DNA from: Brachyhypopomus gauderio | Lineage: Eukaryota; Chordata; Actinopteri; Gymnotiformes; Hypopomidae | Direction: 5' to 3' | Assembly: GCF_052324685.1 (NCBI RefSeq) | Contig: NW_027506894.1 | Location: 615,690 to 679,689 of the forward strand | Length of the DNA stretch: 64,000 bases | In this document: one piece after another, positions 19,992-50,828 of the stretch | Position numbering within the stretch: the stretch's first letter is position 1 | Layout of the letters: each line of letters starts with the position of its first letter | Notes under the pieces: model-generated | What the model was told of the DNA's origin: nothing | The model's database searches: none | Seen by the model: only the letters and a program-made list of their open reading frames with translations | Made by a program: the position numbers and the translations under genes

Positions 19992-20122
19992 TTAAGCAGC
20001 TATGAACATGCGTACCCCTTCATTGTGGAGATCCATGAAGCCCTTAATGACGTCCAGGCACTGGGCCCACACTGAACCGCTCACACTGCAGTCGTACTGG
20101 GGGAACACCTCCTCCAGCCACT
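19992..20122 (-). CDS. BEN gene (-), BEN domain second half and stop
   Basis: Acceptor ttgtgtgtccag, phase 1. Encodes EWLEEVFPQYDCSVSGSVWA then QCLDVIKGFMDLHN and ends FIAA TAA. Confidence 0.93.
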
Positions 20123-21640
20123 CTGGACACACAAACCACAGAGTGCAAGGAGGCGTCACCAGAGGCGGAGTTTACCTCAATGGGGGAGGAGTGGAGGCGG
20201 AGTTTACCTCACAGGGGGTGGGGGGAAGTGAGTGGAGGCAGAGTTTACCTCACGGGGTGGGGGAAGTGAGTGGAGGCGGACTTTACCTCACGGGGTGGGG
20301 GAAGTGAGTGGAGGCGGAGTTTACCTCACAGGATGGGGGGAGTGAGTGGAGGCGGAGTTTACCTCACGGGGGGTGGGGGGAAGTGAGTGGAGGCGGAGTT
20401 TACCTCACGGGGTGGAGGGAGTGAGTGGAGGCGGAGTTTACCTCACAGGATGGGGGGGAGTGAGTGGAGGCTGAGTTTACCTCACAGGGGATGGGGGGAG
20501 TGAGTGGAGGCGGAGTTTATCTGACAGGGGGTGGGAGGAGTGAGTGGAGGCGGAGTTTACCTCGCAGGGCCTCCAATTCGTTGCAGTCGATTTGCCTGAC
20601 AGCTCTTTGCCGGTTGCCAGGGGTGACGCTGCGGGACAAGGCCCCCGTGGGATAAAGGGCGGAGAGCACGGTAACCAGGGCATGCTGAGGCTCCGCCTCC
20701 TCACATGCACGCATGTACATGGAGCCAGGAATCAAGACCTGCCATCTGCCAATCATTACTGAGCAGGAGAAAATGACAAAAAGAATGAAGCCACAATGGT
20801 GAGAGTCAAAGATGCAGAGACAGATCCTACCCATGTACCCCCAGGACATGCCACAACCCCCCCCAAACGACTGTCCTCGTCTCAGTCCTCACCATTCGTG
20901 TTCTCCATGTTGGGGTCCTTAGCAAGAGGCGCGTCCTTCACTGTGACGGGCCCTAAACTGTTGGCCTCCATCTTGGCCACACCCCCAGCCGTGGGGCGTT
21001 TCTTCCCTTTCTTCAGACGGCCACTCTGCCCGCCGGGGCCCCGCCCCTCTGGTCCGGGCTTTGCCGTCAACCCCTCGTCTCGAGGTCCTTCCTGCTGAAG
21101 CTGAACTTGATCCGGTTGGGATCTCTGCTTGGGCGGTCTCCTGCGCTTGCCTTTCCCCCTCCCTCCACCAGGGGGCCTGGACTGCGCCAGGCTTTGAGAA
21201 CTGGGCTGGGGAGGAGGGTGCGGCGGAACGTTCTGGAAAGGGGTCGTCTGAGGGGAGGGGCCCAGACGTTGGGCCAGGGCCCTAGACAGTTGGGCGGCTC
21301 CAACAGGCGGAGGAACCACAGCCTGAAAAACACAACGCAGAAACTGAAGACAATCAGCCAGGGCCAGCAGGTGTGGCACAGGTGGAGAAGGTGTGGTAGG
21401 TGTATTGTAGGTGTGGTTCACCTCCTCCAGGTTCTCCTCCTTCCTGCACACTCCGGCAGCACAGGGGCACGACTGGAGGACGTCAAGCTTCTGCTCCAGA
21501 CGCTGCACCGCGGCCTGTAGGAGCTGACGGAGAAACGAGCTGCATGAGAAACACTGACGGAGCTCGACACCAACACTGCTCACTGAGGGCAGAGTTAGAA
21601 ACGACCAACCTTGCTCTTCAAGGACAGGAAAGACGCCTCT

Positions 21641-21680
<40 letters not shown>

Positions 21681-23414
21681 GAACCCACTCGGTTCAATAA
21701 TACCAAGCTCACAGGAGTCCAGGTCTAGAGGTCATGGGGCTCAACACATCCCACCAGAAATCACTCTGAACAATAACTTCAATAAGGAGTTTGCCCCGCT
21801 ACGCCCCTCACCTCACGCCCCAACCCTCACACCCCTTCCCCTCACATTTTACGGCATTTGGCAGACGCCCTTGTCCAGAGCGACTTGTATAAAAATGAGA
21901 TAAAATGCAAGTGAGCAATTGAGGGTTGAGGGCCTTGCTCAGGGGCACCTCAGTCATGGCCTCAGGTCTGGGAATCAAACCCATGACCCTCTGGTCACAA
22001 GACCAGTTCCCTAACCACCAGGACATGACTGCCCTCACCTCACCTCACACTCCGCCACCTGTGGGATGCAACCACAACTGCTAGAATTCATGTTTCTGCC
22101 CTTAAGCATAAACTATATTTATTACTTACCCAGACATCTGTGTGTAGAGCTGAATGTATATTTAAAGGAGTCCTTCCCACAAAAAGCCTGACACTTCCCC
22201 CCTCATTTGTGTAACCAGTTATTTTAGTTTTACTTGGTACAACCTTTCACATTAAAACCATAAAGCCTACTTTATTCACCTTTAACCTTTTCATACAGCT
22301 GTTTATAAAAACATACAATAATTGTCCTTATATTTAACATGCATCTCTGGTTCAACAAATGTATGATGGTGGATATAACAGTTTTCCTGTTTGAACGCAC
22401 ATTAAACAGTAAAAAGACCAATCAATGATCATCCTAACAAACAGAAGAAAGGTTTCAGTCAGCGCTTTATTTAAATCAGAGAACATCAACCGTGATAAAT
22501 GAATGACAAATAAAGAGGGAAAAAGCCCTTTGTTGCATCGGCTCAATTAACAGTAATAACAGTAAATCAATTATAACTGATTAGCCATTTACCAAAAGTG
22601 TAAAAAAGTAAGTAAAGTTCCCTTAACCCATAACCCTTGTCTACTAGCTGATACATGGGGAGAGGCAGTGGTAAACACCCGACCTACAGGTGTGGGAGGA
22701 GCCTGACCTACAGGTGTGGGACGAGAGGCCCATCAACCCATCAAGTCCAATCCTGTAAAAATGCAAGAAACTGGAGTCCTTGTAAGAGGTGGTGTGTGTG
22801 TGTGACCTCTGCAGTGTGTGAACAGGATGCTCACCCTGCAGTGGTTGAGGACCTCGAGCAGAACATCCTCAGGTTCCTCCAGACCTTGGGCTCGGTCCTG
22901 CTCAAGAAACCGAGAAAACAAAGACGACGTAAAAACCCGCACGTGGGCGGGACTCCAGGCTGGAGGACAAAGTACTGCAAACAGAGACTGGTTGTCACAC
23001 ACAGATTGGTTGTCTCACACAGACTGGTTTTGTAGTTGTGGCTCTCTACCGGAGTACCTCCAACATCAGGGTGCAAAGCCTTTGTGATTGTGCGGTTGGT
23101 GGTAAAACCAGCCAATCATTAATAAGAAGGCTAACAGCACTCCCCAATCACCAATAAGAACACTGGTGGCCATGCATTACTATAGCACCATGATTCAAAG
23201 ATCAGGTTCATCTCAATATATCCACCAGACCAAAAGACTCTACAGCCTTTGTAGGGGTGTGTGTGGCTCCTCCATTCACCAGATATGCACACATTCAGAA
23301 TCAGTGATCTGAAGATTCCTAAAGGAAATCCAGCATTGGTGTGACTAGTGACCACGCCGCCTGCAGACACTCAAGACCATGTCGATCTGTGCCTGCTCAC
23401 AGGTTACAGAGAAG
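19992..23414 (-). CDS. protein with one C-terminal BEN domain, inverted paralogue of the (+) BEN gene
   Basis: Exons 5' to 3': 23371-23414 (uncertain), 22835-22900, 21422-21523, 20893-21322, 20561-20758, 19992-20122. From 22900 on the phases are 0, 0, 1, 1 and the frame stays open to TAA at 19992, giving 308 codons. Order: short N-terminal block, helix LLQAAVQRLEQKLDVLQSC, a long Pro/Gly/Lys/Arg-rich linker, then one BEN domain (WQVLIPGSMYM...LSALYPTGALSRSV...CNELEALRG / EWLEEVFPQYDC...WAQCLDVIKGFM). Each exon has a counterpart in the (+) gene at 13-18 kb with the same phase. BEN proteins usually act as sequence-specific or chromatin-bound repressors; no specific role is claimed. The 5' end and start codon are not resolved, and the next gene upstream on this strand is the BED array. 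Confidence 0.82.
20160..20562. repeat. minisatellite of about 40-bp units, each with a splice-donor copy
   Basis: Eleven units with the core ggcggagtttacctcacag followed by G-rich sequence. On the minus strand each unit reads CTGTGAG|GTAAACTCC or close to it, the same sequence as the real donor of the exon at 20561. Confidence 0.93.
20561..20758 (-). CDS. BEN gene (-), BEN domain first half
   Basis: Acceptor tttctcctgctcag, phase 1. Encodes WQVLIPGSMYMRAC, LVTVLSALYPTGALSRSVTP and QIDCNELEALRG. The donor CGAG|GTAAAC lies inside one unit of the adjacent minisatellite. Confidence 0.93.
20893..21322 (-). CDS. BEN gene (-), basic Pro-rich linker exon
   Basis: Acceptor gtgtttttcag, donor AAT G|GTGAGG, phase 0 to 1. 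Encodes a Pro/Gln/Gly/Lys/Arg-rich linker with basic clusters [11 protein letters not shown] and RLKKGKKRP, plausible nuclear localisation signals. Confidence 0.85.
21422..21523 (-). CDS. BEN gene (-), helical exon
   Basis: 34 codons, phase 0-0, acceptor ctccgtcag, donor GAG|GTGAAC. Helix LLQAAVQRLEQKLDVLQSC matches VMYGAIQKLDAKFELLKTS of the (+) gene. Confidence 0.88.
21640..21680. repeat. (AC)n microsatellite
   Basis: About 19 AC units in an intron of the (-) BEN gene. Confidence 0.95.
21848..22040. mobile_element. SINE-like repeat with conserved LINE tail
   Basis: Contains catttggcagacgccc...gagcgactt, the conserved L2-type tail core of fish, and a tRNA-like part (gggaatcaaacccatgaccc on +). 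A related copy lies at about 28440-28605. Confidence 0.65.
22041..22834. other. intron of the (-) BEN gene, nothing further seen
   Basis: AT-rich, no supported exon. A 26-bp cctacaggtgtggga repeat pair lies near 22681-22720. Confidence 0.5.
22835..22900 (-). CDS. BEN gene (-), exon with VLLEVLNHCR
   Basis: Encodes QDRAQGLEEPEDVLLEVLNH then CR, with donor AGG|GTGAGC in phase 0. It aligns with GTDPLRTLGEILAYCQ of the (+) gene at the same phase. The acceptor may be at 22900 or three bases further in. Confidence 0.65.
23371..23414 (-). CDS. BEN gene (-), possible N-terminal exon
   Basis: After a gttttttgttttag acceptor it encodes FSVTCEQAQIDMVL, similar to DVTCVQMEQDSF of the (+) gene. The donor (TTGA|GTGTCT) is weak and its phase does not match the next exon, so the right border is doubtful. 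Confidence 0.35.
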
Positions 23415-24996: not shown

Positions 24997-25239
24997 CTAC
25001 TGACTAATGCCATGCTTGTCTTCAAGATGCTTGAACATGTTTGTGGTGTTGCCACCCTGGCTAGACACCTTCTGAAAGCAGATTTTGCAGATTGGCCGTC
25101 CGTCCACGTTAACAGTTAAGTCTGGATGTTTACGATACCCAAAGTACTCCCAGACGGAGGAGCGAACTTTCTTGGACGGAGGGTGAAGTTCGTTGGGTGC
25201 ACCTGCATCCAGACCCAACTTCGATGTTCGCAGGGACTT
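24997..25239 (-). CDS. BED-array exon 23: finger 22 and stop
   Basis: 80 codons and TAG. Finger SVWEYFGYRKH...PICKICFQKVSSQGGNTTNM then FKHLEDKHGISQ. The protein ends right after the last zinc ligand, with no transposase-like C-terminus. Confidence 0.94.
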   Translation of the reverse strand, partial: KSLRTSKLGLDAGAPNELHPPSKKVRSSVWEYFGYRKHPDLTVNVDGRPICKICFQKVSSQGGNTTNMFKHLEDKHGISQ

Positions 25240-25590
25240 CTGGAATGACAGAACATAGAGGAACCGTTTTCACAACACTCAACGAAGGAGGGAAGATGCT
25301 TACAGCAGGGCGTGAAGTAAAACAACAACAACAACAACAACATTACCTTGAACTCGTCATAAACTTGGACATGGCAGAACTGCAGGTGTCTGATCATTTT
25401 TCGTGTGTCTTGACTTGAAATCTTTTTGCCACAAGTTTTGCAGACTGGGCACCCATCATCTTCAACAACACCGTCGTCATTTTTGGGAATGCCAAAGAGT
25501 TGCCATATGGGAGACAGAGGACGCTTACTCGGGGGGTGGAGCTCCGGAAGATTCTCAGGTGGGACCACCTTTTGCTTTTTTTCAGGAATC

Positions 25591-25655
<65 letters not shown>

Positions 25656-26996
25656 GTAGTGGGTAAGAACTCTGCAGGGTGCTGGGGTTCAATACCCTTT
25701 TGCAAAAATGCTGTGTGCTATACCAATAAGACACTACCAACACTACATTTACCTCCCAACATAACAGGCTTAACATTTGTAAACGGTTCTGAGCATCAAA
25801 CGTGCAAAGTTATTCATAAAAAAGGCATACAGCACATGAACGTGCACACGCACACACCTTGAGATCGAGGTAGACACTTCTGTGGTGATCTTTGAGGTGA
25901 GCCGTCATGTTTGCGGTCACCTTCCCTTTATTGGACACTTTGGCCAGGCAGATTTTGCAGATGGGGAAACCGGTGCAGTTGGTTGGAGCGTCTGCGTCCC
26001 TGACGTAGCCGAAGTGCTTCCACACTGACGACCTCACCTTGTGCTCTGGGGGGTGGAGCTCTGGGAGCTCGGTGGCGCCCCCGATGGTGAAAGGGTTTAC
26101 TGCACTCTGAGGTGACACGATGGGGTATAAGGGTTACCTGGACTAGCACAAACAACTTTCACAGCATTGTATTAATGAGCTTACAACATTACTGAACTAT
26201 AGTGAAGGGTTTTTTTTAGCAACTTCAAACTTTAAAAAGGCCCTTAAAGATAAATAAATAATCACAGCACAGGTCCAAAGCGGAAGGCGGTTACCTGTAC
26301 TTCTGTGTACACAGCACCGTGGTTCTCTTTAAGATGCTGCATCATATTTGCGATGGTTTCGCCCTTGGAGATCAGCTTCCGGAAGCAGAGCTTACAGATC
26401 GGTGCTTCGTCCTCGTCAACGTTGCCCTCTGCAGTTTTCCGATATCCAAAATGTTCCCAGAGCTTCTCGTTGTACTGACCGCTGGGCGGGTGGAGGTCAA
26501 GGGTCAAGCACGCGTCCTCAAACGTCTCGTTCGTAACTGCAGACTAAAAACACGGCGGCTTTGAAACTCACAGCAAAAAAAAAAAAAAAACCTTCATTGG
26601 CATCAAGACCAAAATATGGACCGTGACTTCCTAATCGGCGATGGTAACTAACCCTGATCTCGTCGTAGATGGATCTGTGATAGTCCTTAAGATGTTTGAA
26701 CATGTTTGTTGTACATCTGCTTTTCGAAGCCACCTTCTGCTGACACATTTTGCAGATGGGGAAACCGTCACACACCACGGCCCCCTGTGTGTCTTTAAGG
26801 TAGCCAAAGTACTGCCAGACCGGAGACGTGACGTTCTGCGTGGGAGGGTGGAGCTCCGGGGGCTCGATACCCCACTCCGTCCTCAGAGCCGTAATGGCCT
26901 CCTGAGAGGAACAAGCATACAGCCACATCAGATTTGGTGAAGATCTTGTCTCACCTTCTCTGAACTGACTCAACATTCCAGGAAGGCGCACACAAA

Positions 26997-27029
<33 letters not shown>

Positions 27030-30000
27030 CACACAGTAACACCAAAGGGCCTCTAGAATAAGGGTTGTTCTTAACGAGCGTGTACCTGGACTTCCTCGTA
27101 CACGGCCTGGTGTTTCTTGCGGAGGTGTCGCAGCATGTTGGTGGTGGGGGTCCCATCACTGGAGCCCCTGATTAGCCTCCGCAGGCAGAGTTTACAGATG
27201 GGGGCCCCGTCGTCCTGCAGGACACCCTCAGCGTTCCTGGGGTATCCAAAGTGATCCCACAGCTTTATGTCGCTTTGGCCGTTGGGTGGATAAAGTTCCA
27301 TGGGTCTGTACAGCACCTTTTTCCCAACTGCAGGCTAAACAAACAAAAACAATTGTTTTAATTTCATTAAAGATGTAGGATGAAAATGAGAAAACAGTCA
27401 TGGACTAGGGGTCCAGGAAAAAAATCCTGGATTATTAAAAAAATAATAATAAAAATAAATTTTTTTATAATAAACACCCTTGAGCCAGTGTGTCTTTGGA
27501 CATAGATAATGCCGTGCCGTTTGATGTTATGGATAATTAAAGTCTAGCTCTTATTTATGCATAGAAATGTAAATTGACAATATTATCTGTATCGTCTTTA
27601 TGCGCAGATAAACGAGGGGAGTCGGAATTCGCCACAACACCGGCTGAAGCCAACACTGTCACACATGAAATGCTACAGGCACCGTTTAGAAACTGATCAG
27701 TTCAGTTAAACGTATTCAGTTCAGTAGATATATGCAGAAAAATACGGTGTAATATATATATCTGATTTATTTATCTCAGTAGCTCCTGAGATCTTGAAAA
27801 TCGTTTTGAATCGAGAATCGTTTTTGAATCGGAAAATAATCATTTTTAATCAAGAAAAAAATAATCAAGAATCGGGGGAATAAAATATTGAATCGTGACC
27901 CCAAGAATCGATTCTGAATCGAATTGTGGGATTCCCAAAGATTCACAGCCCAATCATAGACCTCACCTTGACTTCTCTGTAGAGGTCCAGATGGTACGCC
28001 CGTAGATGAATGAGCATGTTGTTCGTGCTTCCAGCTTTTGTCGCCACTTTCTGTTGACAGATTTTGCAGATGGGCATGCCGTCACACACCACATCACCCT
28101 CCGAGTCCTTCAGGTAGCCAAAGTACTTCCAGACGGGGGACATGGCGTCAGACGAGGGTGGGTGGAGCTCCAGAGCCTCCAGCTCACCCTCTGGCCTTGT
28201 GGGAATTGTCTGAGAGGGTAATCATGTCACAAGACCAGTCAATGGAAAGCAACTCGAATTTGCTTAGCATCAAACAAACTTGACAAATGTTAACATCCTT
28301 GGTCTGCATCACTGTCTAATTAAATGAAATGTGCCATATTTTGTCAATTGTGATTTTTACACCCCAATCGAAAATTGTCCTCCGCTTTTAACCCATCTGT
28401 GCAGTCAGAACACACACACACACTAGTGATTACTAGGGGGCTGTGGATCAAACGTGCCCAGAGCGGTGGCCAGCCCTAGCCTGGCGCATGGGGAGCAGTT
28501 GGGGTTAGGTGCCTTGCTCAGGGGCACCTCAGTCATGGCCTCAGGTCTGGGAATCGAACCCACGACCCTCCGGTCACAAGACCAGTTCCCTAACCGCCAG
28601 GTATCAATGTTGTATTCACTTTATGCAAACCACAACTAGGGCAATCTAGTGCAATTAACTTTAAAAAACTAACAAAAAAACAATAACTGGTAAAGCCCTA
28701 CAACAAGTTCATAGCTTATAGTTATAGTTTATCGCCTCGCTTCGCATGCTTGGGGCGTGTTGAAGAAACCGTCCAAAGTTGACGTGGGAGACCTGCTAAC
28801 AGAGGCTACAGGAGCTCGTGTTGTCAATAGAACATCAGTGAGTCCTTATTGACCAAGTTTCACCTGCAATGAGCGCCGGTCCGTATGACCGATAAATGGG
28901 AACCAGAACTTCGTCATATAGCAGGTGAACATGGTACCAGCTACAATGGGATCACCATGAAGATTGCTCCCACAAGCAGACACTGACCACGTGTTAGGAT
29001 AAGGCACCCTTACAAAGAAAACTTATCTTCATGGCATTGACGAGCATCTGTGTCCGGATCTAACTGCAGAAGTCTTACTGAACAGGCTCCGAGTTCTCAA
29101 CATGTGGTATGGCGATTTCACGAACCGACAGGCAGGCGCAATAAGTGTTCATGATTCATGGCCCAGCTTTCCTCGTGGGCATGGTAATACCCACATCACC
29201 AGAGGGGTGGTTACCTTGATTTCATCATAGGTTTTTCGATGGTAATCTCTGAGATGGGTGAACATGTTGGTGGTGTTGCCTCCTTTTGCAGACACTTTCT
29301 TCTGGCAGAGTTTGCAGACTGGGAAGCCATCGCATTTCACAGAGCCCTCCGTGTCCCTGGGGTAGCCGAAGAACTTCCACACTGCAGATTTCACCTTGCG
29401 AGTTGGCGGATGAAGGTTTGGAGGTTCCCCGCCACCCTCCGCGACGAAGGAGCCGACCACCTCCTAAAAACAAACGAGCCATATTCACTTTTTGCCCCTT
29501 CAGCCAACACAGCCGGGTCTGTACCCCAACCTAACCCCCAGTGAAAGGGCCATAATGAAGACTCTTCACTATGAACTCCTGTTATTATTCTAGTTTAGGA
29601 CCAATACTTCTCCACTGTGATGTTTACCTCTGGTTCAGGATGGACAATGTTGTGGATCTCTTTGAGGTGCTGCCTCATATTTTTTGCAGTGTCTCCCTTG
29701 GACACTAATTTCCGAAGGCAAAGTTTACAAAATGGCGCACCGTCCTCTTCCAGAACCCCGTCTGCATTTTTCAAATATCCAAAATGCTCCCACAGCGTCG
29801 GGTCATGCTGATGGCTTGGGGGGTAAATATCTGCAGCTGTACAGAGGTCCTCGAATCTTTCATTTGTAACTGCAGACTGAGAGCAAAACATTTATTAGCT
29901 TAAAATCACTGACTCAATCACATCACCACACAGTATGGCATTTAAGCCCCAAACCCACGCAGCTACGTACCCTGATCTCATCGTAGATGGGCCGGTGGTA

Positions 30001-33000
30001 ATCTTTGAGATGCTTGAACATGTTGGACGTGGTTCCTCCTTTAGAAGCCACTTTCTGACGGCACATTTTGCAGATAGGGAATCCGTCACACACCACAGAC
30101 CCGTCCCCGTCCTTCGTGTACCCAAAGTAGTCCCAGACGGGAGAGGTGATGTTGGCAGTGGGCGGATGGAGGTCCAGAGCGTCTGCTCCGCCCTCGGGCT
30201 GCAGGACGTTGATGGCCTTCTAAGACAGCAGAGTGCCACGTCGACATTCACAGCACGTAGAACGGGGTTCAGCACAGGTGCTCGCACTACACAACACTAC
30301 TTCCAACTAGGGCTGCCATGATTAGTCGACTAGTCACGACTATGTCGACTACTAAAATAGTCGACGACTAATTTATTAGTCGATGCGTCGTTTTTTTTTT
30401 TCCTCTCCAAACTGCTGCGACAGTTTCCACTGCTGTGTCTGCGTTTCTGTCCTTGACGCACATGCGCAGTAGTGGAAACCGGGGTAGACAGTTGACGACA
30501 TCCCAGGACGTTATACAGACAGGTTCTGGTATCGTGGCTACCCGGCTACGGAACACAAAAGTGTGGGATCATTTTCCGTAGTCGGGTTCCGAAACGTGTG
30601 CAATATCTGCAAGGCAGAACTTGCCTTCCACGGCAGCACAACCGCGATGTACGAGCATGTACCTGAAGCATGTCGTGGCTAATTGTGACAACAATGATGA
30701 ATAGGGACCGTCATCTCTGTAATCTAAATTGCTAGTTAGCTGCTAAAGTTACCATAAACAGAGCGTTAACTTGGTACTTACTTATCGCAGGGTTGCCAAC
30801 TTTTCAAGATCACTTGGAGTGAGATTTGATCTTTGGGGGGGGTAAAATGGACACAAATTAAGTATTATATCGCGATCGATTGCCAGTGGTTGTCGCCAGA
30901 GCGAACTAGTAACTCATTGAATCATAGATGTGGATCAGAGGTAAATAAACTAGATTTTTTTTCGGCGTGAGAAATCGGGTGTGTGAGCGTGTGAAGACGC
31001 GTGTGTCTCACTCTCAATGCGTGAGAGTTGGCAACCCTGCTTATCGCTGTAAAAGTTAACATTAGTGATGGCGATTTGTTTCATTAGCCTTAGCACGCAT
31101 TCGTGTATTTTCTGTAACGTCAGTGAGACCAAAACTTTATTTTTGTGAATAACTCCTTAGTTTCAGGTCCCTGCCTAATTTGATTTAAATGTAGCGAAGT
31201 TTGATGCCAGAGACTAATGAAAGAAAGAAAAACCTAAAAAAAAAATTCTTTATTAATGTAGGCCTATTTATTTTTGTGTTTTTTAAGGCAGTGCCTTATC
31301 CTTATTTTAATAATTGTTTGTTGCAACAAGCTGCATATTTCATTAAAGGTTTAATGAACTATGATCTTAATTGTTTTTAATTTTAGTTATAGCTGAAATC
31401 TAATGATGGTTATATAATAGCAGTTGCATTCTAGTGTATGTTTTATATTAAATTAACGTACAATCCGACTAGTCGACTAATCGTAAAAATTAATCGGTGA
31501 TTAGTCGACTATTAAAATTATCGTTTGTGGCAGCCCTACTTCCAACTTAGTGACTGACCTAACGTCAGTTTTAACAGGCATCAAAATCAGTCAGCTGTTG
31601 CTGAATCACATTATGTGCAGACTAAAAATAAACAAGTTAGAGGTCAGCCAAAAACAACGTACCTGGACCTCCTCGTACACGTCCTGGTGTTTCTTGCGGA
31701 GGTGTCTCAGCATGGCGGTGGTGGTGACCCCACCACCCTTGGAGGACGTGGTGAGCTCCTGAAGGCAAATTTTACACACTGGGTTACCGTTGTCTTCTAC
31801 AATGCCATCTGAATTTTTGGGATATCCAAAGTGATCCCATAATCTTTTGTCAATTTGTCCATTTGGTGGTGAGAGCTCAAGTGGCTTGTAGAGCTTCTTT
31901 TGTAGATCTTTCTTTTCTGTAGAGCTACCTGCCAACTAGAGTAAAAATATTGAATTAAAAAATATATATAATTCAAACAGCACTGAAAACGGCACGTGTG
32001 GATCTATTTTAATGGTTTGCAGGTAAATGAGACGTGCTACCTTAATTTCTCTGTAAACGTGCAGATGGTGAACCTTCAGGTGTGAGAACAAATTAGCCGT
32101 GTCCCCATCTTTGAATTTCACTTTCCGTAGGCACATCTTGCAATGAGGGAAGTCGTCAAAAACGACCGATCCTTCCGCGTCCTTGGGGAAGCCAAAGTAC
32201 TGCCAAACGGGAGACGTGACTTCTTCTGCCGGTGGATTCAGCTCTGAAGGGTCCAGCCCACCAGCAGGATCTGAAGAAGTGAGGGCTGCCTATGCCAGAC
32301 ATGGTGGGGTTCAGTCAGTCATGTACCAGTGGGCAAGAACAAATCAATCAATCAATCAATGCCCCCTCCTCCCCCAACACAAACCATCTCTTCATCAAGT
32401 TTACCTGCACTTCTGCATACTCAGCGTCATGACTGTCAAGAAGATGCTTCATCATGTTCGATATGGTTCCACCTCTGGACATCACTTTTTGGAAACAAAG
32501 CTTACACACTGGAGCCCCATTTTCCATTAGGACAGTGTCCACATCTCTGGGGTATCCAAAATAATCCCATAACTTTGAGTTCTGCCCCTCTGGTGCATAG
32601 AGTTCTGAAGGTGGGCAGACACCTGTAACTACTTCAGACGGCTAGGGAGAAACATTTGAAGAGTAGTTTTCATACAACTACCAAAAAAAAAATGGACACA
32701 ATGGCAGTGCTTAAAAGAAAGTATACACACAGTAATTTGTTTTACCCTGATTTCATCATAGACACCCCTGTGATGGTCCTTGAGATGTTTAAACATGTTG
32801 CTGGTATTTCCTCTTTTGGAAGACACGTTCAGTTGGCAGAGTTTACAGATGGGGAAGCCATCACACACCACCGTTCCCTCAGTGTCCTTCAGGTAGCCGA
32901 AGTAGTCCCAGACGGCAGACTTCACCTTCTGTGTCGGCGGGTACAGAACTGGCTCCTCAACACCCTCCTCGAGTCTGAGTGAATTTGTGGCCACCTGAAA

Positions 33001-36000
33001 AGTTCAACACGTGGAACAACCGTTTCATTTATTCATGGTAGATTTGTATTTACTGCCCTGTGCAGGTTCAGCCCATCTCTGGCACACCTAACCCATCTCG
33101 TGATCAAATCCTTGGGAGAGCTGCACCAGGTGTGCTGGAGGCGAGCCCACGTGAACCTGCACGGCGCAGACGTGCTCCAGGACTGGAGGGGAGGGCCGCC
33201 AACCTGAACCACCCGTTCGCTGCAGGAGACGCGAGCACACCTACCTTGACCTCATGGAACACCGAGTTGTGCTTCTTCCACAGGTGTCTGTACAAAAATT
33301 TTGTCTCGTCTCCTACACAGGTGACCTTACTCCAACAGAGTTTACACACAGGGCGTCCGTCCACCTGGATGGCACCATCGGCATCTTTGGGGTAACCAAA
33401 ATGCTCCCAGACCGGCTCCAAGAGGTCTCTTGGTGGGTGAAGTTCTGAGGGTTGGTATGTTTGCTTTGGTACTTGGTCGTCAGTGTCTTCACCACACAGC
33501 TAGAGTAAAGATAAGAAACCTTTAATCGAACCACACCAGTGTTTCAACATTGTTATTTGGAGTTGCGAATACCAGTCACTGTGAATCCACAGTTAGGGAT
33601 TTAAGCAATATAACAATAATGACGGTTGGAAAAAATCAAAGCTGTTGTAAGTGCCGTCACAGGCATAAATCACTCAGAAATGAATGAAATGAGAACAAAT
33701 TTACCTTCATCTCAGCCAACTCAGCGACATGATACCTCTGGAGATGGACCATCATGTTAGTTGTGCTTCCTCCTTGTGCGCTGACCTTCCGGAGACACAG
33801 TTTACAGACAGGGAAACCGTCCGGCACGATTATCCCCTTGGAATTTTTGAGGTATCCAAAGTGTTTCCAAACAACTGACCGGAGAGCCATTTTGGGTGGA
33901 TGAAGTTCGTCTGCTGTGGTGTGAACTGGTGAGGGACGTCTCCTCCTCTTGTACTGCCTGGGACTACCGGTTGTCACCTTCAGCTCGGCAAACAAAGAGC
34001 TGTGGTGGAACTTCAAATGCCTCAACATGTTTCCCAGAATTCCTTTCTTGGAAACGATGGTGCGCCTGCAGGCTTTACATCGGGGGTGATCGTTCTCCTC
34101 GATCACCCCGTCTGCGTTCTTGGGGTACCCAAAGTAGTTCCACACTGGTGACGGGGGCACTCTGGTGGGCGCAAACAGCTCGGGCAAGCCGCCCTCACCC
34201 TCCACAGGCAGCAAACCGGTGGCTAGCTGAAATGTGAACAGAAAGGCTGCCATCAGATCACAAGCAGGTACATTCTGAACACAGGGAACCCTATATAAAA
34301 GGGTTATATATCTTTCAAGTGCACTTTACATAATTATGCTTCGTCTATTGTACTTTATTGTCTCTTTCCTCAGGTGGTTGTTACAGGCATTGCTTACTGT
34401 CTTTTTCTCAGGTATTGTGCATAATTGGGTTATAGGAATTGCTTATTGTCTTTTTCCTCAGGTGATGTGTATATTCAGATATAATAATGACATGGCATAA
34501 TTGTTAGGTATCATATGACTTTCGTCTAGTGGTTTTTCTGGCTTAGAGTACCTTGTGTTCAGGACTATCTATACTACCTTGGAGATTCCAAGCAACTACG
34601 TAGCACTTTTGTAAGTCGCTCTGGATAAGAGCGTCTGCTAAATGCCATAAATATAAATGTAAATGCACCAACGATTCACCTTGACTTCCTCAAACTCGGC
34701 CTGATGGTGGCGCCGTAGGTGGTTCAACATGTTGGAGGTAGTGCCATCCTTGGCGGCCACCTTCCGGAGGCACAATCTGCAGAGCGGATACCCGTCCTCC
34801 CGCACAACACCCTGTGCATCGCCCAGGTATCCAAAGTGCCTCCACGCCGGTGACTTGCAGTTTTTAGAAGGAGGGTGCAGAGACACTGACTCGGGCAGCT
34901 CCTGGAGCTGTTGCGTCCTGCTCGGAGGGATGGTGTCCTACCCGAGAAACACAGAGGAGCATGCAGAAGTCAGACTGGACTAATTATGGCCCCGCTACAG
35001 GGACCACGCACACTCCGTTTAAGCAGATTGATTTGCACATAGACAGCAATCTCTGGCTTGCGTTTAGTCGCACCTTTATTTCGGCGTACACGTCCTGATG
35101 GTGGCGCTGCAGGTGGTTGTACATGTTGGACGTGGTCCCATCTTTGCTGGCCACCACCTGCTGGCACAGTTATATATCTTTCAAGTGCACTTTACATAAT
35201 TATGCTTCGTCTATTGTACTTTATTGTCTCTTTCCTCAGGTGGTTGTTACAGGCATTGCTTACTGTCTTTTTCTCAGGTATTGTGCATAATTGGGTTATA
35301 GGAATTGCTTATTGTCTTTTTCCTCAGGTGATGTGTATATTCAGATATAATAATGACATGGCATAATTGTTAGGTATCATATGACTTTCGTCTAGTGGTT
35401 TTTCTGGCTTAGAGTACCTTGTGTTCAGGACTATCTATACTACCTTGGAGATTCCAAGCAACTACGTAGCACTTTTGTAAGTCGCTCTGGATAAGAGCGT
35501 CTGCTAAATGCCATAAATATAAATGTAAATGCCACTCAACGTTCATTTTGGCATTGATGAGATGAAACGTTAAGAAGGTCAGTTCTAACATGGGTTAGCT
35601 GATCTCGTCTTGTTTATGTTGTCAATGATGTAGGATTGCTTGTAAATTCAGCAAGTCATATTAGTGTATGTAAACGGAGTAAATCAGAGTCAAGGAAGGG
35701 TCAGACTTCCCTAGAGCACAGCCCTCAAAATGATGATCCACATTTTTGCTGCGACTCTCAACACTATTAAAGAGGGATTCTGGGACAGCCCCTACTAGGA
35801 GAGAGCAAAAACGTGGAGTCCCTCAGGATTGGGCTTATAAACACTGAACTGTCCCCAGTGAGGGATAAGTAAGGCTGCGAGATCCTTCACTCGTGTGAAA
35901 GCTGGTGCCTTGTTTTTGCCTGGAGAAGTTTTGGGTTTTTTTTTTGTGCCTACAGGAATAAGTGGCCCACAGCTAATCATCATCATCACCATCGTCATCG

Positions 36001-39000
36001 TCGTCTAGCTAATTAAGCAGTGGAACGGTTTCTAGCCTCACCAGCTCATTGTTAAACTGAAATTAAACACTGTTCCTTGCACCAACGATTCACCTTGACT
36101 TCCTCAAACTCGGCCTGATGGTGGCGCCGTAGGTGGTTCAACATGTTGGAGGTAGTGCCATCCTTGGCGGCCACCTTCCGGAGGCACAATCTGCAGAGCG
36201 GATACCCGTCCTCCTGCACAACACCCTGTGCATCGCCCAGGTATCCAAAGTGCCTCCACGCCGGTGACTTGCAGTTTTTAGAAGGAGGGTGCAGAGACAC
36301 TGACTCGGGCAGCTCCTGGAGCTGTTGCGTCCTGCTCGGAGGGATGGTGTCCTACCCGAGAAACACAGAGGAGCATGCAGAAGTCAGACTGGACTAATTA
36401 TGGCCCCGCTACAGGGATCACGCACACTCCGTTTAAGCAGATTGGTTTGCACATAGACAGCAATCTCTGGCTTGCGTTTAGTCGCACCTTTATTTCGGCG
36501 TACACGTCCTGATGGTGGCGCTGCAGGTGGTTGTACATGTTGGACGTGGTCCCATCTTTGCTGGCCACCACCTGCTGGCACAGTCTGCAGATGGGGAAGT
36601 CGTTCTCCTCCACCAGACCCTCCACGTTCTTCATGAAGCCAAACAGCTTCCACACCGCAGACTTCCGCCGGGTTTTGGGCGGGTGCAGCTCGACAGGCTC
36701 GCCCCCTTGGGACAACGGAGCAACCGGACCTGCAAATATCGCCACCTAGGAGGAGGGAGACGGGGGCAAAGGTCAAAACCGGAGGACAGAAACAGGGGAC
36801 ATGATCTGACGATATAGTAATATAATAAGGATAAACGACAGCATTATGCTATGCTGTCAAGACGAGTGCGGTCGACTCAACACGACCAATCGTCTGAAGA
36901 CGACGTGAAGGCATTGTGCGTCCAGGCAAGGCCCTCACGAGGAGCCTGACGCCGAGAAAAATCTTTTCAAACTGCAAGAGACATTTAGCGCAACATTGCC
37001 AAGGCACAAAACATTCACAAGAGTGTGTGTGTGTGTGTGTGAATTCAGTGCTTTGGATGAGCAGCTGATCTAAAATGCCGGGTGACTAGCCAGTTTCAGG
37101 GCTCTCGTACTGCAAAGCATGCGATGCCTGCAAATCAGAAAGCTGCTGAACTCATTTAGGTTACTGTTCAATAAATAAGATAATAAATGAGATGAAATGT
37201 ATGACCCAAACAGACTTCACTAATGGTAATACAAAGTGTATCCTGTGCATCTGTTTTCTGCAAAAAATAAAAGTATTGGACTGGACTCACACTGGCAGAT
37301 TCTCAATATCAAAGTGTTCAGATCAGGGGAATAAAAAGGACTGGAACATGAATGAATGTTGAATTTATATAGCGCCTTTCATCATACCCAAGGTCACTTT
37401 ACAACTTTAACACAGGTACAAGTCTTACACGACCAATCACACACCGGCGACATGCCTAACTATAGCATCGAAACACGCCCACTCCTCCACCCAAACACGC
37501 CCACTCCTAACTACCTCCTTTGAGCAGCACACGTTCGAACACTAGCGCAGGTGCTCGTACCTGAACCGAGGGACATACGATCTGATGATGGGCTTGAAGG
37601 TGGTAGCGCATGTTGGTGGTGTTGCTGCCCTGGCCCAGAGACGGCCTCCACCCACACATCTTACAGGCGGGGCCCCGGCCCAACTCCATGACGTCATCGT
37701 ACTGGAAGTACTGCCACACAGCCGAACGGACCCGCCTCTTCTGACGAGGCGTCTTCTGGTATCGGCTCTCATCATAGTCAGAATCTTCATCATCATCATC
37801 ATCGTCATCATCATCATCATCATCGTCGCTGTGATCTTCCTGATTTTTCCATTCCTCTCCCGGGTCTTCCTCGTCTTCATCCATGCTCGACTCCTTGTCC
37901 GAATCTGAAGACTCCGACTCGGACCACACAGCGTCCACTTTCTGAGGAACAGGACGAAGACAATGTTGAAGGACCACCAGCAAACACGACACTTGCTATT
38001 CCTCCGAAACCTTACAATGTGCTACTGCACGACCGCCATTCACCGAACCACCACCACCCAAACGACAAGGTGTTTCTGCTCGTGTAAAACAGCAGGTCAC
38101 CTAAACAGAGCACAGGGTGGGGAGCTATGATGAAGGTCTCACCCTACCTCAGCCTTCAGGAGCGGAGGTGGAGATCAGGATGCTGGCCCTACCTTAGCTT
38201 CACGGTAGGCTGCGGCGTGGTGGTCCTGCAGGTGTCTCAGCATGTTGGACGTGTTCCCCCTCTTGCACGCGACCCTCTGCTGACACAGTTTGCACACGGG
38301 GAAGCCGTCGTCCTCCAACCGCCCGTCCGAGTTCGTCAAATGTTCGAAATGTTTCCAGACTCCCGAGCCGGACGCCTTGGGTGGTGGGAGGTCCCAGATG
38401 GTCGACCTGGCACGCTTCTCCGGAGGCGTGCTCCGACAAGGCTCCGCCCCTTCTTCTGCGATCATTTCCATCTATAGTCGCAGCATAGAGTGGGCGATGA
38501 GACAGCAGCAACCTCTACAACCAAAACATCTCACCAACATCTCACAGAGCTCTTCTGCTAGCCTAAAACAAGGTGCGTTCTATCACACGGAGGATCAAAC
38601 TGTTGCTGCCTGAGGCTTAAAGTGTCCGAGTGAGAAGAACTAGCATTACCTTCACATCTGCACCGCAAGGAATGCTGACGCTCCTGGGGCCAAAAAAAAA
38701 AAACAACCAGGGACTGACGTCTGTTTCCGTCTTTTAAGCCACTCTGGGGACTTACTGCTCAGTTCGGCTGTCGCTCCATCTTGTAAAACGGATCTGAGTA
38801 ACGAACTGAACCCAGCCGTGGCAGTTTAAGGGTTAAGGTGCTCTCTGGGCAGGTGGGCATCCTTATTAGACGCAAAGTGCAGATTGTCTCGTCAGTCATT
38901 CAACACGTGAACTTTGAGGGGTAATTATAACGAGAGAGCGAGAGACATTCTCTCAGAAGGAGAACACCACAATAATAGTGACCGCCACACCCAAGTGAGA

Positions 39001-40447
39001 TTCACAGTTAGCAAAAATAAACCAAGTTGAATGCAAATTCCCATGAAGAATTTCAGAAAATTCAGCTTGGTCATACACTCGTGATTTAGAGAAATTTCAA
39101 CTGTGAACATTTAGGCCCAGAGAACCCACACACTGCTTACGTTTAACTGATATTTAAGAGAAGAGGGCATCAGATGAACAACTCATCTGTAGGAGAACCC
39201 TGGTAAGAACGTAAGCATACCATGACATCCTGACTCAACGTGTGCTACTGTACTGTTCTACATTAGAGCACTCTCAGCAGGTCACACACACACGCACGCA
39301 CTTAGACTTCAGGGACATGATCCTCAAGATTTAGAGTTAAAAAAGCCAATTTACTGCAGTAAACCTGAAGGATCAAATTTACTGCAGTAGAACCTCCATC
39401 TGAGGCAGCACGTTTACTGAAGCGACACGTTTACTGTAGTACGCCCGCTCTGCGTGAGCCGTTCGTCCTCGTACCCTGCTGACGGCGCCAGTGTGTGAGC
39501 CGCGTGTCCCCGACAGGGACGCCCCTGGCCTCTTCCGCCGTCCCCTGGGGCCTCGACGTGGACGGTCCACTTGCTCTTCCTGGTCTGCGAAACAGAACAC
39601 ACCAAACACATACGTGGCATTACGAGCCCATCACCCGTGCAAAAGCAGATAGCAGGTCACGCAGGGAGCCGGATGAGGTCACGTGAGGTATTGTGCTCAG
39701 AACAACTTAAAACGGGCTACAACATTTCAGGACATGGAGAAGTCATCCCACAACCGTCCTGCAGTACTGCGGGGTTTGTGGGAGAATCAGTCTACACCTG
39801 AAGGGGTTTTGCAGGAGTAGTTTTATGTTGCACTAGCTTTAGACTCGCTCAGACCCATAACTGTGCTGTTGAGAGCACGAACCCATCAGGATCGGGTCAC
39901 GCACAGCACGTGGCCCTCCTTAGCCCAAAGTCACATGACCACTAATTCAATATCGCGTCTCCTTTCGCAAACAAACATGAATATTTTAGGTATTGATTAC
40001 ACTGCTGCACACATGATTGGACATGACCTGACTGTGCACGCACGGGCGTGTGCACGCACTGCTGCTTAATGAGTTATTAGTTTAACACAGGCTCGTCCCT
40101 GTGCTCGGAGGTTAATAAAGGCCTCTGGAGAGACGAGGCGCATATCCACCTCGCTGGTTCCGCCAACCGCGGCGGTTCCGGCAGCGCGCGCCCCGGCGCA
40201 CGGGCGGCCCGTCGTCCTCGCCGTCCGACGACTCCACGGGCGCCATCAGGCTGAGCTCCGCCTCGGAGGCCGTCTGCGTGTTGGAGGTCTCGCGCGCCGC
40301 GTCCTGCTCCTCCTCCAGCTTGACCACCACGAACGGCGCGGCGCACACGCTCTTCTCCTCCTCCTCCTCCTTCAGCCCCGCGCGCGCCTCACCGGGCGGA
40401 GAACTGTGCGGACACGCGGGTTTCTCCGCGTCTCCCTCCACCTTCAT
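24997..40447 (-). CDS. giant tandem BED-type zinc finger protein, 22 fingers
   Basis: Not recognised as a named gene. Twenty-three exons give about 2,032 codons with no stop. Exon 1 carries the start (MKVEG at 40447) and an acidic N-terminus, and exon 2 is basic. Exons 3-23 carry 22 BED zinc fingers, each with a [LI]-x-PP lead-in, a W-x-x-F aromatic signature (often VWxxFGY), C-x2-C, then H-x4-H. All 22 keep the four zinc ligands. All introns from exon 2 on are phase 0; nine finger exons are exactly 249 nt. There is no hAT transposase catalytic or dimerisation domain, unlike most ZBED relatives. BED fingers bind DNA and are typical of hAT transposases and of host proteins derived from them, so nuclear DNA or chromatin binding is expected. 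That is inference. A start at 40651 would add 68 residues. Confidence 0.88.
25347..25589 (-). CDS. BED-array exon 22: finger 21
   Basis: 81 codons. Finger PIWQLFGIPKN...CPVCKTCGKKISSQDTRKMI then RHLQFCH, a shorter loop than the others. The acceptor TTAG directly follows a (GT)n tract (plus (AC)n at 25590-25652). Confidence 0.92.
25590..25652. repeat. (AC)n microsatellite at a 3' splice site
   Basis: On the minus strand this (GT)n tract leads directly into the TTAG acceptor of BED exon 22. Confidence 0.97.
25858..26106 (-). CDS. BED-array exon 21: finger 20
   Basis: 83 codons. Finger SVWKHFGYVRD...GFPICKICLAKVSNKGKVTA...HLKDHH. Confidence 0.94.
26295..26543 (-). CDS. BED-array exon 20: finger 19
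   Basis: 83 codons. Starts SAVTNETFED; finger KLWEHFGYRKT...APICKLCFRKLISKGETIAN...HLKENH. Confidence 0.94.
26653..26901 (-). CDS. BED-array exon 19: finger 18
   Basis: 83 codons. Finger PVWQYFGYLKD...VVCDGFPICKMCQQKVASKS...HLKDYH. Confidence 0.94.
27086..27334 (-). CDS. BED-array exon 18: finger 17
   Basis: 83 codons. Lead-in MELYPPNGQSDIKLWDHFGY; CKLCLRRLIRGSSDGTPTTN then HLRKKH. Shares its lead-in with exon 13. Confidence 0.94.
27400..27952. mobile_element. probable decayed hAT-like element
   Basis: The right part (about 27780-27950) is rich in gaatcgattctgaatcg palindromic words and ends attcacagccc, as in abundant fish hAT-type repeats. The left end is not clear and I see no convincing duplication. 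Confidence 0.4.
27967..28209 (-). CDS. BED-array exon 17: finger 16
   Basis: 81 codons. Finger PVWKYFGYLKD...VVCDGMPICKICQQKVATKA...HLRAYH. Confidence 0.94.
28380..28605. mobile_element. SINE-like repeat
   Basis: Shares ggggcacctcagtcatggcctcaggtctgggaatcgaaccc-type sequence with 21930-22020. On the minus strand it carries a B-box-like GGTTCGATTCCC, pointing to a tRNA-derived SINE. Confidence 0.6.
28640..29150. other. intron sequence of unknown nature
   Basis: About 500 bp with a more balanced, gene-like composition than the flanking introns. Stops occur in all frames and I find no family resemblance. Confidence 0.3.
29215..29463 (-). CDS. BED-array exon 16: finger 15
   Basis: 83 codons. 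Finger AVWKFFGYPRD...CDGFPVCKLCQKKVSAKGGN...HLRDYH. Confidence 0.94.
29628..29876 (-). CDS. BED-array exon 15: finger 14
   Basis: 83 codons. Starts SAVTNERFED; finger TLWEHFGYLKN...GAPFCKLCLRKLVSKGDTAK...HLKEIH. Closest to exon 20. Confidence 0.94.
29971..30219 (-). CDS. BED-array exon 14: finger 13
   Basis: 83 codons. Finger PVWDYFGYTKD...VVCDGFPICKMCRQKVASKG...HLKDYH. Closest to exon 19. Confidence 0.94.
30308..31538 (+). mobile_element. hAT element, 1,231 bp, with a decayed BED finger
   Basis: Terminal repeats TAGGGCTGCCA and TGGCAGCCCTA, flanked by a perfect 8-bp duplication CTTCCAAC (30300-30307 and 31539-31546). Both ends are rich in tagtcgacta. Inside, on +, 30561-30575 encodes VWDHF and about 30599-30650 encodes a C-x2-C and Y-E-H segment in another frame: a frameshifted transposase BED finger. 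The catalytic part is missing. Confidence 0.9.
31663..31935 (-). CDS. BED-array exon 13: finger 12
   Basis: 91 codons. Lead-in LELSPPNGQIDKRLWDHFGY and a longer loop in CKICLQELTTSSKGGGVTT, then HLRKKH. Closest to exon 18. A hAT element lies in the next intron. Confidence 0.93.
32041..32289 (-). CDS. BED-array exon 12: finger 11
   Basis: 83 codons. Finger PVWQYFGFPKD...CKMCLRKVKFKDGDTANLFS then HLKVHH. Confidence 0.92.
32405..32641 (-). CDS. BED-array exon 11: finger 10
   Basis: 79 codons. Finger KLWDYFGYPRD...GAPVCKLCFQKVMSRGGTIS...HLLDSH. Close to exons 15 and 20. Confidence 0.93.
32746..32994 (-). CDS. BED-array exon 10: finger 9
   Basis: 83 codons (249 nt). Finger AVWDYFGYLKD...VVCDGFPICKLCQLNVSSKR...HLKDHH. 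Close to exons 14 and 19. Confidence 0.94.
33245..33499 (-). CDS. BED-array exon 9: finger 8
   Basis: 85 codons. Finger PVWEHFGYPKD...CKLCWSKVTC...FLYRHLWKKH. Acceptor actctag, donor AAG|GTAGGT. Confidence 0.92.
33705..34226 (-). CDS. BED-array exon 8: fingers 6 and 7 fused in one exon
   Basis: 174 codons. The first 249 nt (33978-34226) are one canonical finger unit ending AELK, directly followed by a donor-like GTGACA that is read through. The former intron now encodes a basic linker (QYKRRRRPSP). It then leads into finger 7, VVWKHFGYLKN...CKLCLRKVSAQGGSTTNMMV, then HLQRYH. Confidence 0.94.
34680..34937 (-). CDS. BED-array exon 7: finger 5, recent duplicate of exon 6
   Basis: 86 codons with intact splice sites and ligands. 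It lies in the 866-bp copy of the recent duplication. Because it is phase 0, using it adds one finger without shifting the frame. Confidence 0.85.
35074..35168 (-). pseudogene. truncated duplicate of BED exon 5
   Basis: It has the donor end and the second half of the finger (QQVVASKDGTTSNMYNHLQR-like). The duplication junction cuts it just after the CQQ codons, so the first cysteine, the W-x-x-F part and the acceptor are missing. Confidence 0.85.
35170..36583. repeat. recent duplication, long copy (1,414 bp)
   Basis: The direct tandem partner of 34304-35169. It carries BED exon 6 and continues into the complete exon 5. It contains the 548-bp stretch 35533-36079 missing from the short copy; no exon is seen in that stretch. 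Confidence 0.93.
36094..36351 (-). CDS. BED-array exon 6: finger 4
   Basis: 86 codons. Lead-in LPESVSLHPPSK, finger PAWRHFGYLGD...CRLCLRKVAAKDGTTSNMLN then HLRRHH. Identical to exon 7 except for one residue (Gln here, Arg there). Confidence 0.94.
36488..36745 (-). CDS. BED-array exon 5: finger 3
   Basis: 86 codons. Finger AVWKLFGFMKN...CRLCQQVVASKDGTTSNMYN then HLQRHH. A truncated copy of this exon lies at 35074-35168. Confidence 0.94.
36746..37560 (-). other. intron of the BED-array gene
   Basis: No exon seen. A tttatatagcgcctttcat motif near 37370 resembles the tail of a common fish interspersed repeat. Confidence 0.5.
37561..37941 (-). CDS. BED-array exon 4: acidic region plus finger 2
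   Basis: 127 codons. A Ser/Glu/Asp-rich stretch with a run of 13 Asp precedes the finger AVWQYFQY...CKMCGWRP...YHLQAHH. This is the only finger with such an acidic leader and the most divergent core. Confidence 0.92.
38193..38471 (-). CDS. BED-array exon 3: finger 1
   Basis: 93 codons, phase 0-0. Finger SGVWKHFEHL...CKLCQQRVACKRGNTSNMLR then HLQDHH. It carries an unusually long lead-in. Confidence 0.93.
38472..39474 (-). other. intron of the BED-array gene, with one cryptic exon candidate
   Basis: At 38650-38683 a strong acceptor (a T-rich tract, then ggccccag) and donor (AAG|GTAATG) enclose 34 nt. Inclusion would break the frame between exons 2 and 3. The remaining sequence shows nothing. 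Confidence 0.4.
39475..39584 (-). CDS. BED-array gene exon 2, basic
   Basis: Acceptor tgtttcgcag, donor AGG|GTACGA, phase 1 to 0. Encodes DQEEQVDRPRRGPRGRRKRP, a likely nuclear localisation signal. Confidence 0.75.
39585..40149 (-). other. first-phase intron of the BED-array gene (exons 1-2)
   Basis: I see no further exon or element here. Confidence 0.5.
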
Positions 40448-49818: not shown

Positions 49819-49946
49819 GAGGAGACCCAGGGCTGGAGGTCCTCGTCCTCCGTGCAGCTGTGCAGTCATGGAGGATGTTTATCTTCTACAGCTGAGAGAG
49901 TGGTGGAGCGCCCACAGCAGCACTAACAGGGCGCTGAGCCTCTATT

Positions 49947-50828
49947 CTCCTCTCCCCTCCTCTCCTCTCCTCTCCCCCTCCTCTCCCCTCCCCTCCCCTC
50001 CTCTCCTCTCCCCCTCCTCTCCTCTCCTCTCCTCTCCCCTCCTCTCCCCTCCCCTCCCCTCCACTCCTCTCCTCTCCTCTCCTCCCCTCTCCTCTCCTCT
50101 CCCCTCCTCTCCTCTCCTCTCCTCTCCTCCCCTCTCCTCTCCTCTCCTCTCCTCTCCTCCCCTCTCCTCTCCTCCCCTCTCCTCTCCTCCCCTCTCCTCT
50201 CCTCTCCTCTCCCCTCCTCTCCTCTCCCCCTCCTCTCCCCTCCCCTCCCCTCCTCTCCTCTCCTCTCCTCTCCCCTCCTCTCCCCTCCCCTCCCCTCCAC
50301 TCCTCTCCTCTCCTCTCCTCCCCTCTCCCCTCCTCTCCTCTCCTCTCCTCCCCTCTCCTCTCCTCTCCTCTCCTCTCCTCCCCTCTCCTCTCCTCCCCTC
50401 TCCTCTCCTCCCCTCTCCTCTCCTCTCCACTCCTCTCCTCTCCACTCCTCTCCTCTCCTCTCCTCCCCTCTCCTCTCCTCTCCCCTCCTCTCCTCTCCTC
50501 CCCTCTCCTCTCCTCTCCTCTCCTCCCCTCTCCTCTCCTCCCCTCTCCTCTCCTCCCCTCTCCTCTCCTCTCCTCTCCCCTCCTCTCCCCTCCTCTCCTC
50601 TCCCCTCCTCTCCCCTCCCCTCCTCTCCCCTCCTCTCCTCTCCTCTCCTCCCCTCTCCTCCCCTCTCCTCTCCTCCCCTCTCCTCTCATCCCCTCTCCCC
50701 TCCTCTCCTCTCCCCTCCTCTCCTCTCCCCTCCTCTCCTCCCCTCTCCTCTCCTCCCCTCCTCTCCTCTCCCCTCCCCTCCCCTCCTCTCTCTCCCTCTC
50801 CCCTCCTCTCCCCTCCTCTCTCTCCCCT
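49947..50828. repeat. polypyrimidine tract, (CCTCT)n-like, about 880 bp
   Basis: Almost pure C and T on +, in irregular cctctcctcccctcc units with a few A. Duplicated blocks such as ccactcctctcctctcctctcctccc recur. Long open frames on both strands are composition artefacts. Confidence 0.97.

Follow-up and report, generated by a model that had tools for sequence, protein, structure and literature searches.

The 64,000-nucleotide stretch of Brachyhypopomus gauderio DNA analysed here (the window) contains, on its minus strand, a gene of 23 exons (40447..24997) whose 2,032-residue product carries 22 tandem BED zinc fingers (F01 to F22) behind a leader. The structure of the gene, the BED fold (by model), the orthology, the conservation, the duplication history and the pattern of residues at the position equivalent to Arg70 of the Hermes transposase were computed here. 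We put at about 60% the probability that this is a host gene for a nuclear, multivalent DNA-binding protein, consisting of a leader and some 21 BED fingers and derived from the BED exon of a ZBED1-like gene.

Gene structure and finger identity

A six-frame motif scan of the window detected 22 BED-like motifs. Every one of them lies on the minus strand, within 25012-38357; the plus strand of the 64-kb window yielded none. Exon limits were chosen by inspection of splice sites, and the coding sequence of the resulting gene, stop codon included, is 6,099 bases long and has no internal stops. All 22 introns are of the GT-AG type; the first is in phase 1 and the other 21 are in phase 0. The numbers of exons and codons agree with those of a preliminary description of the window, made from the sequence alone, which had joined 23 minus-strand exons with consistent phases into about 2,032 codons. 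Twenty exons encode one finger each, exon 8 encodes two, and exons 1 and 2 encode the leader. Measured from lead tryptophan to lead tryptophan, the repeat period of the array is 79-91 residues, with the single exception of 130 residues between F01 and F02, which are separated by an acidic stretch.

The zinc ligands (C-x2-C...H-x3-5-H) were present in all 22 motifs of the window, as had been claimed earlier. The Pfam domain scan of the window gene covered the 21 finger-bearing exons, with leader exons 1 and 2 outside it. In support of the earlier finger count, the zf-BED model (PF02892) matched at or above its curated cut-off of 20.6 bits in 19 of the 20 single-finger exons, F08 scoring 20.5, and matched two stretches in the two-finger exon 8. 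No other domain reached its cut-off in these exons, in agreement with the suggestion that only fingers stand behind an acidic and basic leader.

Neither a hAT catalytic (RNase H-like) domain nor a hAT dimerisation domain was matched in the 21 finger-bearing exons or in the whole Electrophorus protein P0001; with the same domain library, Dimer_Tnp_hAT was detected above cut-off in the single-finger protein P0022 and hAT-like_RNase-H just below it (24.9 vs 27). KRAB was also sought in these exons and in P0001, with no match, and two C2H2-type matches, both below cut-off, were obtained in one exon. The non-BED Pfam matches in P0001 (P_C10 and OrsD, both above cut-off there, and DUF4428) all overlapped fingers and were judged to be spurious. 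Of the features of an active hAT transposon (a transposase body, terminal inverted repeats and multiple copies), the transposase body was absent from the scanned exons; the array gene has introns. A structure model of a single finger (F09) had the BED fold. The two-finger model was weak (predicted local distance difference test, pLDDT, 72.7 for the best of five and 38.8-41.1 for the rest; best Foldseek E 8.6e-3, with no match at 0.001), so the single-finger model was relied on.

Orthologs, conservation and growth of the array

A protein search returned 13 proteins, 11 of which were long array proteins (1,670-2,488 residues) from Electrophorus, Acnodon, Salminus, Pygocentrus, Hemibagrus, Astyanax, Silurus, Clarias, Ameiurus, Trichomycterus and Ictalurus. 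They were 64-81% identical to the window protein, the highest value (81%) being that of Electrophorus, and their names were uninformative ("uncharacterized", "hypothetical" or "BED-type domain-containing"). These genera are gymnotiforms, characins and catfishes, and the NCBI taxonomy unites their orders, the Gymnotiformes, Characiformes and Siluriformes, in the Characiphysae. The order of the fingers was the same in the window protein and all 11 orthologs, and because each ortholog is annotated as one long protein with that order, the earlier reading of a single gene was supported; several separate genes were not favoured by this comparison.

The four zinc ligands were retained in 986 of the 988 filled cells of the 12 sequences (window and 11 orthologs), both exceptions falling in F22 of the Electrophorus model, whose final part departs from the other orthologs. 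The aromatic pair was retained in 495 of 495 cells. In all 20 comparisons the finger had a higher mean identity between species than the stretch that precedes it (for F01 this stretch was the leader; F03 and F04 gave no comparison). For five old paralogous pairs, the block pairs described below, NG86 dN/dS ratios were about 0.10-0.38 (dN 0.14-0.38, dS 0.85-1.94), which is in keeping with purifying selection, some of the dS values being above 1 and near saturation. The proposal that the ligands had been kept by selection was supported by the ligand retention, the higher identity of the fingers and the dN/dS ratios, and a chance or pseudogene origin was rejected because of the orthologs and the ligand retention.

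The leader was found in 10 of the 11 orthologs (P0007, which starts at exon 3, is without it), and a psi-K-x-E site was present in the leader of all 11 leader-bearing sequences, the window included. A common C-terminal end was found in 8 of the 11 orthologs and was not shared by P0001, P0002 and P0010. Such differences between model ends would fit an artefact in which prediction has strung separate genes or decayed exons together, here and in the other species; the comparison is one of gene models, and those of the other species may have been predicted in similar ways. However, frames and ligands are intact in every window finger, nearly every ligand cell is retained overall, and most orthologs share both the leader and the C-terminal end. 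We regard such an artefact as very improbable.

Some gene models called for separate treatment. A reading of P0014 as a separate paralog was rejected, since it matches this array with F10 running directly into F16. The C-terminal extension of P0002 was taken as a fused neighbour, and not as part of the array. A transposase-like stretch (PF13843) between F02 and F03 of P0004 (Pygocentrus nattereri), at alignment columns ~435-947, was likewise not counted with the array and is probably an inserted element that was absorbed into the gene model. In the Cypriniformes the array was not found and only ZBED-like matches were obtained, by a shared-word search that a diverged array could escape.

The earlier count of 22 fingers holds for the window but not for the ancestral array. 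The finger of window exon 6 (residues 443-528) was exactly missing in nine of the 11 orthologs; P0007 was without residues 443-526, and P0011 without residues 443-788, which correspond to the exon-6 finger and three more. On these alignments the ancestral finger count is 21, and 22 is a lineage state. Positions 34664-35170 match 36078-36584 with 99.4% identity across 507 bp, which take in intron sequence, and exons 6 and 7 (F04/F05) differ at one of 258 bases (NG86 dN 0.023 and dS 0.011, over a compared stretch that extends past the exon end). The duplicated stretch also carries the 3' half of the F03 exon, whose own acceptor is missing; this truncated copy is probably not spliced in. The twenty-second finger is in frame because the exon is symmetric, and it is one of three things: a local duplication of very recent date, a polymorphism, or an error of assembly. 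Two pieces of a long interspersed nuclear element (LINE), at 34303-34678 and 35169-35545, frame the fresh duplicate inside the array gene; they are 99.2% identical and each has a UnaL2 3' element. A LINE-linked exon gain is possible.

The symmetry of the exons also bears on a reading that is compatible with the DNA-binding one, namely that splicing yields a family of proteins with varied finger subsets, the full array being one isoform. Except for the last, which holds the stop codon, the finger exons are symmetric (phase 0-0; 20 of 21), and nearly all introns are in phase 0. Gaps in the models coincide with exon limits in P0011 (without exons 6-8), P0007 (from exon 3) and P0014 (the F10-F16 join), and isoform X1, X2 or X3 appears in several database entry names. 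This evidence consists, however, of database models whose gaps may be annotation or assembly faults, and the large gaps of P0009 and P0001 lie off exon limits. We view such tuning by splicing as possible, at somewhat less than even odds.

A tree was built from 135 finger sequences (68 columns) of the window, Electrophorus, Hemibagrus, Astyanax and Clarias, together with those of other arrays and of single-finger proteins. Eighteen of 21 finger positions formed a clade across species; the exceptions were F10 and F13, which had no resolved clade, and Astyanax F12, which fell outside the other F12 and F17 sequences. Fingers were paired as F11/F16 (support 99/88), F12/F17 (100/97), F14/F19 (94/89) and F15/F20 (89/83), and F13 and F18 were reciprocal best matches with 80% identity. 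These five pairs indicate the duplication of a five-exon block (F11-15, F16-20) in an ancestor of the three orders. Two finger classes, A and B, alternate from F09 to F20, with same-class neighbours in one of 11 cases; 6 of 792 arrangements are as regular, by a test that was devised after the pattern had been noticed. Growth probably began with alternating A and B fingers and continued with the block duplication, all of it ahead of the divergence of catfishes, characins and electric fishes.

A query of eight fingers (F13-F20) returned 20 proteins, three of which were array-gene pieces of other fishes. Outside the array gene and two unnamed arrays, the best named matches were ZBED1-like and ZBED4-like proteins from cyprinids, amphibians and further groups; the cyprinid ZBED-like proteins examined have one finger. 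One finger each, by motif, and an array-like lead-in were found in P0019, P0021, P0022, P0024, P0027 and P0028, with a hAT dimerisation domain in P0022. In the tree, single-finger ZBED-like proteins were not cleanly apart from the array. On the best reading, the array comes from the BED part of a ZBED1-like hAT gene that was released from its transposase body and copied repeatedly as an exon: the BED-encoding stretch of such an Ac-family gene would have become a phase 0-0 exon before it was multiplied.

A search for zf-BED places in the same genome, in which 150 of 4,902 candidates were scored, did not place the window fingers among the 150; a control search of 14 other genomes gave no matches. 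The abundance of such places in the genome (at least the 150 scored), the likely descent from a hAT-type BED and the constant psi-K-x-E site of the leader would suit a role in transposon defence, in which a hAT-derived array represses hAT elements through their subterminal repeats, as KRAB zinc-finger proteins act on retroelements. An arms race would, however, predict quick turnover, whereas the identity and order of the fingers are steady across three orders and only a single recent finger gain was found. A defence role is, in our judgement, distinctly improbable.

Elsewhere in this genome, locus L013 (contig C5, ~1.797 Mb) contains a single 1,274-codon open frame with four zf-BED matches and is ZBED4-like by finger number. 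Loci L010 and L011 (contig C12, ~23.331 and 23.341 Mb) are alike, lie ~10 kb apart and belong to another BED subtype. A second array on contig C12 was considered and rejected; only these two loci, with two BED stretches each, were found there.

Position 70, proposed function and known systems

The Hermes transposase has one BED finger per chain, with CCHC ligands and base contacts at positions 64, 66, 67 and 70 (available text of PMC10368747). These four positions map onto the array, whose fold is the same by model; the array fingers have CCHH ligands, and the Hermes finger is tied to a catalytic body. Among 68 columns ranked by how far they vary from finger to finger while staying constant within each finger, that of Hermes Arg70 came first, the residue being nearly fixed within 17 of 21 fingers and unlike between fingers. 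The remaining contact columns ranked 7, 23 and 44, and asparagine was the majority residue at the place of Hermes Asn67 in most fingers. With the Hermes BED as model, the third helix of each finger would sit in the major groove. Neighbouring fingers may read different short motifs, because position 70 differs between fingers and is nearly fixed within most of them, and the whole array could grip clustered or composite sites by many weak contacts. As a possible acceptor of SUMO, the psi-K-x-E site of the leader could serve to attract a repressor. For the array protein we infer a nuclear location, DNA binding, finger-by-finger specificity and a regulatory output.

Ranks 2-6 were occupied by columns of the linker and by positions 69 and 74 of the helix, which vary between fingers too, and position 70 is Val, Leu, Ile or Ala in some fingers. 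Both observations would agree with fingers that are mainly protein-interaction modules, the array being a long multivalent scaffold, for example of egg or chromatin structures, and no reader of sequence. ZBED3 is part of a solved mouse egg complex (9l4j, by title), and a ZBED3 chain was among the nearest structures to the model. Against a scaffold are the asparagine at the Asn67 place and the top rank of position 70, and we consider it unlikely.

In layout the array is like the poly-C2H2 proteins of the KZFP and CTCF type, with a leader, a long tandem array, variable helix residues and conserved ligands, and to that extent the likeness drawn in the preliminary description stands. It does not extend further: poly-C2H2 proteins use another finger class with a repeat of ~28 residues, compared with 79-91 here, whereas the array has mostly one finger per symmetric exon and most of its fingers keep their place and sequence, in steady order, across three fish orders. 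Like the array, ZBED2, ZBED3 and CGGBP-type proteins have BED without a catalytic part, but they have one finger each and not 21-22. The ZBED family (ZBED1, ZBED4, ZBED6) shares the same Pfam zf-BED finger, and ZBED1/4-like proteins are the nearest relatives outside the array gene. Its members described in the papers examined have one to four fingers, compared with 22 in the window, about five times as many and mostly one per exon. ZBED proteins proper also have a hAT RNase H-like and a C-terminal dimerisation region behind the BED, neither of which was detected in the finger-bearing exons of the array gene.

In the available text of PMC3606216, ZBED4 has four BED domains and ZBED6 and ZBEDX have two, and duplications within ZBED genes were inferred by the authors; zebrafish ZBEDs have one or two BED fingers in that of PMC9859435. 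By these accounts, described BED proteins reach four fingers at most. No description of the array gene was found among the papers listed by searches of PMC, a body of text without most subscription-journal papers and without preprints. Queries with LOC gene names gave no papers in PMC, and the available text of PMC8097297, PMC10027918 and PMC9296551 holds no account of the gene. The preliminary description had allowed for an already described multi-BED protein; none was found, the database matches being without a functional name and the papers listed in PMC silent.

Other multi-BED arrays were found. P0012, of the anchovy Engraulis encrasicolus (3,242 aa), carries C2H2 fingers after a run of 33 BED fingers (motif count), and the database proteins P0017 (921 aa) and P0018 (731 aa) have nine and seven by motif. 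Each of these arrays forms its own clade (100/87, 100/85 and 100/90, respectively, every fourth motif of P0012 being included, nine rows in all), which makes it likely that arrays expanded separately several times; the fork that parts the three from the window array is weak (98/60). A search with P0012 returned itself and six Characiphysae proteins, and no second clupeiform array.

Features of the window and implications

Downstream of the gene on the same strand, homology to the C-terminal extension of P0002 (Acnodon) was found in three stretches from 22.9 to 20.0 kb (E 5e-8, 2e-6 and 3e-4); on the plus strand, 17364-17480 gave a fourth match (E 1e-4). These matches suggest a shared neighbour. 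The plus strand also holds large open frames of an NHS-like gene at 2996-6833 (Pfam NHS, E 5.2e-252 and 4.1e-88) and, at 17590-18282, an open frame with a weak BEN-domain match below cut-off (21.9 vs 23.2 bits). Long minisatellites occupy 54968-57215 and 49946-50829; they comprise a 22-bp unit repeated 102 times and a CT-rich array of 5/10/15-bp units, with strong GC skew.

Exons of the array gene and associated features, in window coordinates
Feature	Coordinates	Strand	Content
Exon 1	40150..40447	-	start codon (ATG) and acidic leader, which has a VKLE (psi-K-x-E) motif; phase 1 at the exon end; leader in 10/11 orthologs
Exon 2	39475..39584	-	basic stretch (RRGPRGRRKRPG), presumably AT-hook-like
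Exon 3	38193..38471	-	F01
Exon 4	37561..37941	-	acidic stretch (Asp run) and F02
Exon 5	36488..36745	-	F03
Exon 6	36094..36351	-	F04, one member of recent duplicate pair; missing from 11 orthologs
Recent duplication region	34303..35545		duplicated 507 bp and two LINE pieces
Truncated copy, 3' half of F03 exon	35074..35170	-	own acceptor lost, donor kept
Exon 7	34680..34937	-	F05, other member of pair; 1/258 bases unlike exon 6
Exon 8	33705..34226	-	F06 and F07 together; two zf-BED stretches
Exon 9	33245..33499	-	F08; zf-BED 20.5 bits vs cut-off 20.6
Exon 10	32746..32994	-	F09, class A; fold modelled
Exon 11	32405..32641	-	F10, class B
Exon 12	32041..32289	-	F11, class A; first of block 1
Exon 13	31663..31935	-	F12, class B
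Exon 14	29971..30219	-	F13, class A
Exon 15	29628..29876	-	F14, class B
Exon 16	29215..29463	-	F15, class A; last of block 1
Exon 17	27967..28209	-	F16, class A; first of block 2
Exon 18	27086..27334	-	F17, class B
Exon 19	26653..26901	-	F18, class A; top mean between-species identity (92%)
Exon 20	26295..26543	-	F19, class B
Exon 21	25858..26106	-	F20, class A; last of block 2
Exon 22	25347..25589	-	F21
Exon 23	24997..25239	-	F22 and stop codon
P0002-extension homologous stretches	20046-22900	-	fused gene models or shared neighbour

BED fingers have repeatedly been domesticated from transposases, and the proteins described in the available texts carry one to four of them. The array gene suggests an unstudied kind of DNA-reading protein. 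It may tentatively be seen as a second kind of polydactyl DNA-reading protein, made from BED fingers, in which a long array whose recognition residues differ from finger to finger was fixed early and kept in three orders, and such arrays may have arisen several times independently (in otophysans, an anchovy and two further lineages). If this is true, the polydactyl architecture would not be special to C2H2 fingers, and such an array could stay constant rather than turn over. The array illustrates how part of a jumping gene could become a long modular protein through the duplication of a symmetric exon, and the conserved 21 fingers would provide a naturally occurring series of BED fingers, divergent and each identified by its position, from which a BED recognition code could be read.

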